DNA from: Oscillochloris sp. ZM17-4
Lineage (GTDB): Bacteria > Chloroflexota > Chloroflexia > Chloroflexales > Chloroflexaceae
NCBI RefSeq assembly: GCF_019599295.1
Contig: NZ_JAIEWN010000013.1
Coordinates: forward strand, 48,566 to 101,604
Direction: 5' to 3'
Length of the DNA: 53,039 nt
The position numbers and the translations under genes are program-made. The number at the start of each line of letters is the position of its first letter. Within the stretch, counting starts at the first letter, position 1. Below the pieces are notes generated by a model. That model ran no database searches. It saw only the letters and a list, made by a program, of their open reading frames with translations, and was not told the DNA's origin. Positions 7,505 through 15,356 of the stretch are shown here, in pieces.

Positions 7505-9154
7505 CTACGCCTCGACGCGGTAGTTGCGCATCATCCCGGCGTCCTCGTGCTCCAGGTTGTGGCAGTGGTAGACGAAGGCCCCCGCGTGGTCGCGGAAAGC
7601 CATCAGCAGCCGCACGCGCTCGCCGGGCATCACCAGCACCGTATCCTTCCAGCCCTCATCCAGGTAGCCGTCCTTCACGCCCGCCCAGCCGGCCTGGAGC
7701 TCGGGCAGCACCGCGCGGCCGATCACCTGGAACTGCCCGCCGTGGATGTGGATCGGGTGGGCCATGCCCATCGCGTCCATCATCGCGCCCGGGTTCTGCT
7801 CGTTGATAATCTCCCAGACCTCCAGGGTGTCGAGCCTGACGATCTCCTCTGGCGCGACGGCGTTCATCTCGTAGCTGCGACCGTTGAGCTGCCACTGCAT
7901 GCCGTTCATGGTGAGGGCCACCGGGCGCGGGTTGTCTTTGTTCACCGCGTCCTCTCGCCGGTGGCGCGGGATGGTCGCGAGCCTGGCGGGCAGAGTCAGC
8001 GGCTCCGCCTCTTGGCGGGCGATGCGCACCCGCAGGATATCGAGGGCCGCGCCCAGCGCCGGCGCGCTGGCAGTGCCCGCCGTGCCGCCCATCCCGCCCA
8101 TGTTCCCGTGCTGCATGCCGCCCATCCCGCCCATCCCGCCAGCCTCGCCCGGCGCGCCCACCCCCTCCGCGCCTGCGAAGGGCTGGCTCACCAGGCGGAG
8201 CTCTGCGCCCAGCGGGCGGTCGCGGAAGTCGGCCCAGAGCTCGACCCGCTCGCCCGGCGCGAGCATCACGAAGGGCCGGCTGACGGGCGCCTCCAGCAGG
8301 CCGCCGTCGCTGGCGATCACGGTGAGCGGGGTGGCGTCATCCCAGGCCAGCTTGTAGATCCGGCTGTTCGAGCCGTTCAGCAGGCGCAGCCGGTAAGCGC
8401 GGGTGGCCAGATCGAGCGTGACATCCGGCGTGCCATTCACCAGCACCCGCTCGCCGAGGAAGCCCATCATCTGGCTCATCATGTCCAACCCGTAGACGAT
8501 CTGGTTCTGCGCGTCGAAGGCGCGGTCCTGGATGACCAGCGGGATGTCCTGGGCGCCGCTCGGCAGGCCGGCGGCCTGCTCCTCGGCGTCGCTGACCAGG
8601 AAGAGCCCGGCCATGCCCATCATGACCTGCCGGCCGGTCTTGCCGTGGGGGTGCGGGTGAAACCAGTAGGTGCCGGCCCGGTTGGCGACGGTGAACTCAT
8701 AGACGTAGCGCTCACCCGGCTTCACCGCATCGCTCGGGTGGCCGTCGACGGCGGCGGGCAGGTGCAGGCCGTGCCAGTGGATGATCGACTCCTGGTCGGG
8801 TTCGGGCAGGGCGTTCTCGAAGGTGATACGCACCTTCTGGCCGCTGCGGGCGCGGATGATCGGCCCCAGGTAGCTGCCGGGGATGGCCTGGGCCGCCGCC
8901 GGGTCGCCGGCGTGCACGGTGGCCTGGTAGCTCCAGACCGTGGTCTTCGGGCCGGGCAGGATCTGTACCTCGGTCGAGGCGGCGCGCATGGTCAGGTCGA
9001 GGTCGGGGGTGAAGGCCGGGCTTGCGGCGGGCTGGGCGGGCTCCAGCGTCGCCGGGAGCGCGCAGGCGCCCAGGGCACCCGCGCCACCCAGCGCCAGGGC
9101 CCCGGAGCCGGCCAGGCGCAGCAGGTCGCGGCGGGACATCGTTCGTCGCAGCAT
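7505..9154 (-). CDS. Multicopper oxidase, Tat-exported lipoprotein (CueO-like)
   Basis: 549 residues. The N-terminus has a twin-arginine signal (MSRRDLLRLAGSGALAL) ending in a lipobox LGAC at residues 28-31, so it is probably exported folded and lipid-anchored. All four copper-ligand motifs are present: HWHGLHLP (126-133), HPHPHG (about 168), HPIHIHGGQFQVI (about 455) and HCHNLEHEDAGMM near the C-terminus; the Met after the last motif is a plausible T1 axial ligand. A Met/Gly/His-rich insert (about residues 345-365, repeated GGM) resembles the Cu(I)-binding insert of CueO. This supports cuprous oxidase activity and copper tolerance. Upstream lies the CTTGA-type promoter at 9198-9253. Confidence 0.92.
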   Translation of the reverse strand: MLRRTMSRRDLLRLAGSGALALGGAGALGACALPATLEPAQPAASPAFTPDLDLTMRAASTEVQILPGPKTTVWSYQATVHAGDPAAAQAIPGSYLGPIIRARSGQKVRITFENALPEPDQESIIHWHGLHLPAAVDGHPSDAVKPGERYVYEFTVANRAGTYWFHPHPHGKTGRQVMMGMAGLFLVSDAEEQAAGLPSGAQDIPLVIQDRAFDAQNQIVYGLDMMSQMMGFLGERVLVNGTPDVTLDLATRAYRLRLLNGSNSRIYKLAWDDATPLTVIASDGGLLEAPVSRPFVMLAPGERVELWADFRDRPLGAELRLVSQPFAGAEGVGAPGEAGGMGGMGGMQHGNMGGMGGTAGTASAPALGAALDILRVRIARQEAEPLTLPARLATIPRHRREDAVNKDNPRPVALTMNGMQWQLNGRSYEMNAVAPEEIVRLDTLEVWEIINEQNPGAMMDAMGMAHPIHIHGGQFQVIGRAVLPELQAGWAGVKDGYLDEGWKDTVLVMPGERVRLLMAFRDHAGAFVYHCHNLEHEDAGMMRNYRVEA

Positions 9155-9197
9155 ATGGGCAGACTCCTCCTGGTGTCGATTCGATGGGTCACGCGAT

Positions 9198-9253
9198 AGT
9201 GTAGCGAGGGCAGATCAAGACCAGATGCGGCTCATGGTCAAGATCTGGTCAAG
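9198..9253 (-). promoter_or_regulatory. Response-regulator-type promoter of the multicopper oxidase
   Basis: Read on the minus strand: CTTGA (9253-9249), 6 bp, CTTGA (9242-9238), 18 bp, CTTGA (9219-9215), 11 bp, then the -10 hexamer TACACT (9203-9198). Start-to-start spacings are 11 and 23 bp, whole helical turns, and the -35 is replaced by the last repeat. That is typical of OmpR/PhoB-family activation. The same layout occurs at 13312-13367 and 15341-15396. It lies 44-99 bp upstream of the oxidase start. Confidence 0.75.
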
Positions 9254-9368
9254 CCGGGTGGGGCGCGTGGAGCGCGGCGGGCGCGACCTGCTCGCTGGCG
9301 CGGATGGCGACCCGCAGCTGGTTCTCGGGCGGGGTGAGCGGGCATGACGAGCCGTTGTTGGAGGCGTA

Positions 9369-9517
9369 CTAGTACTACAGTTGTAGTTCCTGCGACGTTA
9401 CTGCTGGCGACGGTCTGGAGGCGAAAATCCTAGCGCTGACGGGCGCTTTCCCTTGGTGTTGATCGGGCTTTTCGCTCTCCGGGCTGCTCATTTTTCGAAC
9501 TACAACTGTAGTACTAG
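9369..9517. repeat. 21-bp perfect inverted repeats, each a CopY/BlaI-like operator
   Basis: Positions 9369-9389 and 9497-9517 are exact reverse complements, separated by 107 bp. Each copy contains a near-palindrome ACTACA-NN-TGTAGT, whose core TACA-NN-TGTA (9376-9385 and 9501-9510) equals the cop box/BlaI-family operator consensus. It may be a pair of operators controlling this copper region or the ends of a MITE; no clear target-site duplication is seen. No BlaI/CopY repressor gene is in the window. Confidence 0.6.
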
Positions 9518-9586
9518 GGGCGGAAGGGCGGACGTGTACGCATGCGCATGCTCCAGGCGTCGTGTCGCGAGGTGAGGTACGACCAG

Positions 9587-11362
<1,776 letters not shown>

Positions 11363-11447
11363 ATTGAGCACGCGCCGGCGCAGCGAGGAGGAGGCGCAGG
11401 CGTCAGAGTGGATCTCCGACAGGCACGCGCTCCATGCTCTCCAGCGG

Positions 11448-11480
11448 TTGACACCGGCCACACTCGTTGTATGATACAAC
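11448..11480 (+). promoter_or_regulatory. Sigma70-type promoter with palindromic operator for marR
   Basis: TTGACA (11448-11453), a 16-bp spacer and TATGAT (11470-11475). The -10 lies inside a perfect 15-bp inverted repeat GTTGTAT-G-ATACAAC (11466-11480), a typical MarR-type operator position for autorepression. The predicted transcription start (about 11482) is only a few bases before the likely GTG start codon at 11485, so the mRNA would be leaderless or nearly so. Confidence 0.7.
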
Positions 11481-13311: not shown

Positions 13312-13367
13312 AGTGTATCGCGACACGCTCAAGATCTGATGCGCGCAATCATCAAGATCTGATCAAG
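13312..13367 (-). promoter_or_regulatory. Response-regulator-type promoter of the ferric-reductase-like gene
   Basis: On the minus strand: CTTGA (13367-13363), N6, CTTGA (13356-13352), N18, CTTGA (13333-13329), N11, TACACT (13317-13312). The geometry is base-for-base that of 9198-9253. It points away from the response-regulator gene at 13468, so it serves the gene starting at 13211, although binding could also affect the divergent regulator operon. Confidence 0.75.
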
Positions 13368-14172: not shown

Positions 14173-15356
14173 GCCCGCGCCGCCGCGCGGGCCTGCGCGC
14201 CCGGCTGTTCCTGGCCCACCTGCTGGTGATCGTCGCCGGGATGGCGACCCTGCTGCTGGTGACGCTGCTGATCGCGCCCTCGCTCCACGACCGGCTGATG
14301 GTCGCGCTGCTCGGTGCCGATGCGCCGACGGCGGCCGACCCGGGCATGGCCGCGATGGCCCAGGCCACCAACGCGGTCTTCCAGACGGCAATGATCGAGG
14401 CCCTGCTGCTCAGCGGCGGCGCGGCCTGCCTGGTGGCCGCCGCGGTGAGCCTGCTGGTCTCCAGCCGGATCGTCACGCCGATCGAGCGGCTGCTGATGGC
14501 GAGCCGGCGCATCGCCGGCGGCCACTACGCCGAGCGCGTCCCTGCCGAGGGCCGCGACGAGCTGGCCGCCCTGGCGCTCCAGTTCAACACCATGGCCGGC
14601 GCCCTGGAGGACGCCGAGCGCCGGAGGGTTACCCTGATCGGCGACGTGGCCCACGAGCTGCGCACGCCGCTGGCCACGATCGCGGCCCAGGCCGAGGGCG
14701 CCCTCGACGGGGTGGTGGTGCCGGACGACGCTGCCTGGGCGCTCATCCTCGACGAGGCCGGCCGGCTCCAGCGGCTGGTGGCCGACCTGCAGGCGCTCTC
14801 GCGGGCCGAGGCCAGGCAGCTGCCCCTGCACCTGGCGCCGATCGCGCCGGGGGCGCTGGCCGAGCGCGCGGTCGCCCGGCTGGCCACGCAGTTCGCCGAG
14901 AAGGGCGTGGCGCTGACTACCGTGGTCGCCCCGGGACTGCCCGCCGTCACAGCCGACGCCGACCGCATGGCCCAGGTGCTGATCAACCTGCTCGGCAACG
15001 CGCTCCAGCACACCCCAGCCGATGGCGCGGTCGCGCTGCGCGTGATGAAGGAAGTGACTCCGGACGGCGCGCACTCCATTCTTTATCCTGCATCCTGCAT
15101 CCTGTTCGAGGTAGCCGACAGCGGAGCGGGGATCGCGCCGGAGCACATCCCGCACCTCTTCGAGCGCTTCTACCGGGTAGACAAAGCCCGCGCGCGGGCC
15201 ACCGGCGGCAGCGGGATCGGCCTGACAATCAGCAAGGCGCTGGTCGCGGCCCACGGCGGCCAGATCTGGGCCGCGAGCGCCGGCCCCGGCAAGGGATCGA
15301 CCTTCACCTTCACCCTGCCGGTGGCCGAGCGGGCCGAACGCTTGACCAAATCTTGA
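14169..15356 (+). CDS. Two-component sensor histidine kinase
   Basis: 395 residues from GTG 14169, overlapping the regulator stop. TM1 is about residues 14-36 and TM2 about 76-98, with a short 38-residue exterior loop that contains several Met residues. HAMP domain 98-150. H-box DVAHELRTPL with His162. N box (NLLGNALQH), G1 (VADSGAGIAPEH), F (FERFYRVD) and G2 (GGSGIGLTIS) are all present. An unusual insert of about 15 residues before G1 (DGAHSILYPASCIL) is encoded by heptamer repeats (TCCTGCA) and looks like a repeat element that entered the ATPase domain in frame. The small sensor domain suggests metal or envelope sensing. Confidence 0.92.
   Translation: MSPRRRAGLRARLFLAHLLVIVAGMATLLLVTLLIAPSLHDRLMVALLGADAPTAADPGMAAMAQATNAVFQTAMIEALLLSGGAACLVAAAVSLLVSSRIVTPIERLLMASRRIAGGHYAERVPAEGRDELAALALQFNTMAGALEDAERRRVTLIGDVAHELRTPLATIAAQAEGALDGVVVPDDAAWALILDEAGRLQRLVADLQALSRAEARQLPLHLAPIAPGALAERAVARLATQFAEKGVALTTVVAPGLPAVTADADRMAQVLINLLGNALQHTPADGAVALRVMKEVTPDGAHSILYPASCILFEVADSGAGIAPEHIPHLFERFYRVDKARARATGGSGIGLTISKALVAAHGGQIWAASAGPGKGSTFTFTLPVAERAERLTKS

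Follow-up and report, generated by a model that had tools for sequence, protein, structure and literature searches.

The inverted repeat between the copper ATPase and multicopper oxidase genes of Oscillochloris sp. ZM17-4 is, we conclude with high confidence, a non-autonomous IS701-type MITE of 141 bp that went into a CTAG target. It has terminal repeats flanked by a target-site duplication, related copies of it occur in other genomes, empty sites for some of these copies are found in relatives, and IS701 elements exist that carry the same ends. Throughout, the window denotes the whole stretch of DNA that was analysed (53,039 bp).

The first-pass annotation had described perfect 21-bp inverted repeats 107 bp apart, each with TACA-NN-TGTA inside ACTACA-NN-TGTAGT, and both descriptions are accurate: the left arm (9369-9389) reads CTAGTACTACAGTTGTAGTTC, its reverse complement recurs without a change in the right arm (9497-9517), 107 bp lie between them, and each arm holds the longer motif. 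The placement between two copper genes holds as well, since domain models identify a copper-translocating P-type ATPase gene at 9587-11479 (minus strand; TIGR01511, 584.7 bits against a cut-off of 397, with TIGR01525 also over its cut-off) and a multicopper oxidase gene at 7505-9154 (minus strand; PF07731, PF07732). The exact pattern ACTACANNTGTAGT has two matches in the whole window; allowing up to two mismatches gives three, against 0.26 expected, a number reached by none of 100 shuffles. The pattern TACANNTGTA is matched twice, both times in the arms (0.07 expected; one of 100 shuffles reaches two), and across the whole window the core TACAnnTGTA is confined to the two arms.

Read from the outside in, each arm consists of CTAG followed by TACTACAGTTGTAGTTC. 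In related copies the outer four bases vary from locus to locus yet match across any one copy (CTAT/CTAT, ATAG/ATAG, TTAG/TTAG, CTAA/CTAA), which makes them a target-site duplication and the element itself the 141 bp at 9373-9513. The duplicated CTAG thus stands at 9369-9372 and 9514-9517, the left terminal inverted repeat at 9373-9389 (plus strand), and the right one, its exact reverse complement over the full 17 bp, at 9497-9513 (minus strand). The interior (9390-9496) is non-coding and partly self-complementary. No ORF of at least 60 aa lies wholly within 9373-9513, and there is no transposase gene inside; one ORF, at 9375-9713 on the minus strand, overlaps the element. The first 13 bases of TACTACAGTTGTAGTTC are common to the related MITEs and to IS701 elements.

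As a mechanism, the 17-bp terminal repeats contain the ends that a transposase of the IS701 family, provided in trans, would recognise, and insertion at the 4-bp target CTAG left one copy of it on each side. As CTAG is a palindrome, these copies lengthen the inverted repeat, so that 17 bp appear as 21. The near-palindrome TACTACA-GT-TGTAGT is part of transposon ends found in several phyla.

Copies, target duplications and empty sites

The whole element occurs once in the window's genome (6.69 Mb, 98.6% complete), so that a search for further copies, as the first-pass annotation proposed, comes out negative at home and positive among relatives, where copies are many and at unrelated loci. Among 61 genomes, made up of the window's and those of 60 relatives, 14 contain matches to CTAGTACTACANNTGTAGT with up to one mismatch. 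Counted on both strands, there are 28 in G004 and 25 in G003, both of the same genus, against none in either for the backwards control; the window's genome has two, G005 has one (control two), and G001 and G002 have none. The exact end-to-end pattern is matched in 4 of the 41 genomes of the family. The closest copies to the window element are 70% identical (in G005, cut by a contig end) and 68% identical (in G003). The element had no blastn match among plasmids, and the end-to-end pattern had none in viral contigs.

To these we added the genome_contigs collection, in which the end-to-end pattern picked out 35 stretches, by record title 10 from uncultured Oscillochloris MAGs, 10 from Rickettsia endosymbionts, 8 from Acidobacteria, 2 from cyanobacteria and 5 from other bacteria, presumably Firmicutes, whose matches may be due to chance. 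Exact 4-bp duplications flank 20 of the 35 (7 in Oscillochloris, 9 in Rickettsia, 4 in Acidobacteria, none in the cyanobacteria or the other bacteria), compared with a mean of 3.8 and a maximum of 11 when flanks are re-paired. The set from relatives comprises 35 pairs of ends, taken from collected loci with up to three mismatches in all. Here the flanking 4-mers are identical in 22, against a mean of 5.5 and a maximum of 14 over 2000 random re-pairings. The two sets are not separate, the Oscillochloris elements being common to both, and in each of them one pair had a flank too short to use. The duplications match YTAR in 15 of the 20 cases in the genome_contigs set and in 11 of the 22 in the relatives set, the others being CTAT, ATAG, GTAG and one TTTA. 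An exact 4-bp duplication is lacking in 13 of the 35 pairs from relatives and in 15 of the 35 from genome_contigs; among these are pairs due to chance, nested elements and cases at the end of a contig, and L059 (listed as L161 in the genome_contigs set) is flanked by a 5-bp duplication. The first-pass annotation was therefore right to offer a MITE as one of its readings. The relatives supplied the very result that it had named as rejecting the operator reading, namely further copies that sit at unrelated loci and are flanked by target-site duplications.

Several copies (L015, L023, L045, L122, L129) are flanked by CTATCGG repeats, which offer a CTAT/ATAG target and of which short matches occur in many genomes of the family. 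Two copies from different genera, L015 (G003:C550) and L023 (G015:C112), are identical over 149 bases and share the same 8-bp flanks, which reflects either recent transfer or a binning error. The Rickettsia MITEs (L141, L144, L147, L151, L154, L157, L163, L164, L166 and L171) come from four endosymbiont genomes, measure 140-143 bp and have the same ends, with an exact 4-bp duplication in 9 of 10; the stretches read contained no autonomous partner for them.

Another way to view the insertions is from the sites without them. The flanks of 19 copies were joined without the element, keeping a single copy of the target, and six of these probes were searched against the 41 genomes of the family, with no more than nine candidates scored in each genome. 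Among the matches listed, four of the six probes were matched across the joint in some relative: L120 in G005 (78%) and G002 (72%), L057 in G003 (78%), L026 in G036, G031 and G009 (70-73%) and L016 in G002 (74%). For L120 and L026 the alignments run continuously through both flanks without the element, no gap exceeding 11 bases, and at the L120 site G002 retains a single GTAG. The L056 probe gave no joint-crossing match among the matches listed, and the joint of L122 was crossed only by short CTATCGG-repeat matches. No relative yielded an empty site for the insertion in the window itself, and few of them carry the gene beside it (the oxidase is found at E 1e-60 in only 5 of the 61 genomes, the window's included). 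One of the relatives, G017 (L136), has the same gene order of ATPase, 160-aa ORF and oxidase with no element. As an empty site for the window insertion this is only suggestive; the intergenic DNA was compared by eye.

IS701 elements with the same ends

Transposases of the IS701 family score above the cut-off in 12 of the 61 genomes. We examined 31 loci (L192 and L196-L225) for paired ends, and in five distinct elements of 1,474-1,831 bp the IS701 transposase is enclosed by ends of the TACTACAGTTGTA type; the majority of the IS701 loci examined are without these ends. One of the five, in a cyanobacterial MAG (L192), has the ends TACTACAGTTGTAGAT and CACTACAGTTGTAGAT around 1,474 bp with a transposase that scores 385.2 bits with NF033540 (cut-off 150). 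Against the same cut-off, the transposases of the others score 428.1 bits (L196, in G033), 395.4 bits (L197, in G005 of the same genus) and 242.2 bits (L203, in G012); in the last element (G042, covered by L206 and L223) the transposase is in two pieces of 187.1 and 171.8 bits, one with a stop. The only exact 4-bp duplication among them is that of L203 (CTAA).

From these shared ends we infer that an IS701 transposase probably moved the window MITE. Since no IS701 transposase in the window's genome exceeds the cut-off (the best scores 43.1 bits), the window copy appears stranded, or else a gap in the assembly conceals its helper. In PMC2266710, IS701 elements are given 4-bp duplications in almost all cases, as in these MITEs, and lengths of 1,400-1,550 bp. 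The window element differs from them in being 141 bp long and coding for nothing, and the Chloroflexota partners, at 1,789-1,831 bp, are longer than the lengths listed there. The end consensus in the table of that paper, ---YACT-Y--YR, has YACT at positions 4-7, compared with positions 1-4 here.

Beside the transposase, two of the Chloroflexota IS701 elements hold a DUF4096 ORF (PF13340; L196 2481-3140 and L203 169-807), a family described as a putative transposase of the IS4/5 family. A further locus, L046 (G015:C450), was at first taken for an autonomous partner, because 1,469 bp with a DDE transposase lie between its MITE ends. It was ruled out as such, its transposase belonging to another family (NF033591, IS4_2, at 98.5 bits, below the cut-off of 152). 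The outer parts of L046 match the L018 MITE and its inner sequences, judged by eye, resemble the ends of a Nostoc relative, so that the best reading of this locus (L046/L061) is an IS4-type element sitting inside a copy of the MITE. A Y-2-R-3-E-6-K motif can be read by eye in the L046 transposase, and the L046 flanks show no 4-bp duplication.

Correia elements, with terminal repeats other than those of the window MITE, differ from it also in that the window MITE is present as a single copy in its genome. In other respects Correia-type MITEs (PMC10969869) are similar: short, with terminal repeats, a target duplication, a stable fold and no transposase gene.

Operator likeness and transcript folding as alternatives

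The arms hold the core TACAnnTGTA of the cop box bound by BlaI/MecI/CopY repressors, and the first-pass annotation proposed that they form a looped operator pair. A distant repressor would then bind both arms and repress the oxidase gene by looping. The genome does encode candidate repressors: the annotation's statement that no BlaI/CopY gene is present holds for the window's contig (C35), on which PF03965 has no match, and elsewhere the genome has four clear PF03965 genes and one marginal case (22.8 bits against a cut-off of 22.6, with a stop). However, autoregulation would predict a core site at such genes, and the four host blaI-type loci (L005-L008, 3.3 kb each) contain no exact TACAnnTGTA. 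With one mismatch there are two sites in L005 and one in L007. One of these, TACATATGTC (L005 1997-2012), is located some 95 bp upstream of where the BlaI-family gene probably starts and agrees with 14 of the 16 positions of the refined CopY operator; no other result gives the operator idea any room. This operator, RNYKACANNTGTMRNY in PMC7253601, contains a 10-base core described there as necessary and not sufficient, and both arms of the window element miss it by one base (15 of 16 positions), so that the core is there without flanks of the refined kind. The window has three near-matches of this sort, where 2.36 would be expected. No exact ACTACANNTGTAGT is present in the genome beyond the element; allowing one mismatch, the pattern has four matches and the backwards control seven per strand. 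Given in addition that the arms form the termini of a mobile element whose copies sit at unrelated loci, with no repressor gene on the contig, we regard a looped operator pair as extremely improbable.

The annotation's other proposal, a MITE that carries operators as its ends and so spreads regulation, stands in its first half and finds little support in its second. Precedents for regulatory cargo exist, as MITEs with promoters or IHF sites are described in the review PMC10969869, and the core TACAnnTGTA is kept at the MITE ends (in the genome_contigs set by design of the search, and at many ends from relatives too). All that speaks against the looped pair applies here as well, including the absence of the exact core at the host blaI loci, and the pattern of conservation adds to it. 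Over the 40 ends of the 20 duplication-flanked genome_contigs elements, which are related so that the counts are not independent, positions 8-9 are G in 40 and T in 38, although the search pattern left them free, as does the operator at its centre. By contrast, the GT at positions 14-15 that would complete the 14-bp palindrome ACTACAnnTGTAGT is present in 12 of the 40. Conservation therefore follows the asymmetric tip TACTACAGTTGTA and runs from the tip inward as in a transposase site, rather than with dyad symmetry. It is thus very unlikely that, in hosts with such a repressor, the termini of this widespread family of IS701-type MITEs also work as operators of the BlaI/CopY class; if it were true, MITE insertion would recruit genes such as this copper oxidase into repressor control. 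Most likely the arms' likeness to the BlaI/CopY core is a coincidence, and we take the resemblance to be without regulatory use.

A different proposal, compatible with the MITE reading and not in competition with it, is that the inserted element has a hairpin side effect between the ATPase and oxidase genes, acting through RNA processing, partial termination or insulation. The 149 nt at 9369-9517 have a predicted fold of -59.3 kcal/mol on the minus strand, the sense strand of both copper genes (z -7.0), the element begins 73 bp after the ATPase stop with its other end 218 bp from the oxidase start, and RNase III cuts Correia transcripts at their terminal inverted repeats (PMC10969869). Yet any long terminal inverted repeat would give such a fold, no terminator-like site was found in 9100-9620, and Rfam has no match in 9100-9700 up to E 1. 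A passive effect of the MITE on the transcript is possible, and we consider it unlikely. A strand-specific conserved RNA was also considered and set aside: the plus strand of the window element folds well too (z -8.3), the more stable strand varies over the 33 extracted elements (compared without bringing them into a common orientation), and L013 and L015 do not fold alike.

What does weigh against the MITE reading is that the element is a single copy in its own genome, with no IS701 transposase over the cut-off there, that its own insertion has no empty site in the relatives examined, that its closest copies are only 68-70% identical, that a share of the related pairs lacks an exact duplication, and that one of the five partner elements alone has one. 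Set against the matched flanks, the empty sites and the shared ends, these leave a MITE as our strongly preferred reading.

A candidate copper control site and the reach of the MITE ends

Between the MITE and the oxidase gene, outside the element, lies a CopR-like direct-repeat box, TCAAGATCTGGTCAAG (9238-9253, minus strand), which is a likelier copper control site than the MITE arms. With up to three mismatches it has five matches in the window against 0.20 expected. Copies with one mismatch are found at 13352-13367, just before a response-regulator gene, and at 15341-15356, at the end of a kinase gene and upstream of SHOCT and cytochrome c ORFs. In relatives, the exact 16-mer stands upstream of the oxidase orthologue in G017 (L136 1151-1166) and occurs also in L138 (709-724); in L134 and L137 there are sites with two mismatches at a distance of about 700-780 bp upstream of the oxidase, and none is present in L135. 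With its 11-bp period the box recalls the site TGAAGATTTnnTGAAGATTT bound by CopR in Corynebacterium glutamicum, a site that controls a copRS region in which genes for a multicopper oxidase and a copper ATPase are also present (PMC3140484). The box is likely a response-regulator site. It may be bound by the neighbouring response regulator, and that regulator may sense copper; the family models for this regulator singled out no copper type.

In a search of open literature, no title or abstract opening among the papers found names this MITE family; a description may exist in other sources such as ISfinder. One shared end sequence links MITEs of Chloroflexota, Rickettsia and Acidobacteria with an insertion sequence of a cyanobacterium, and an IS701 transposase can be named as their likely mobiliser. 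For motif scans the finding is a caution, in that the termini of widespread IS701-type MITEs can mimic BlaI/CopY operators, also beside copper genes.
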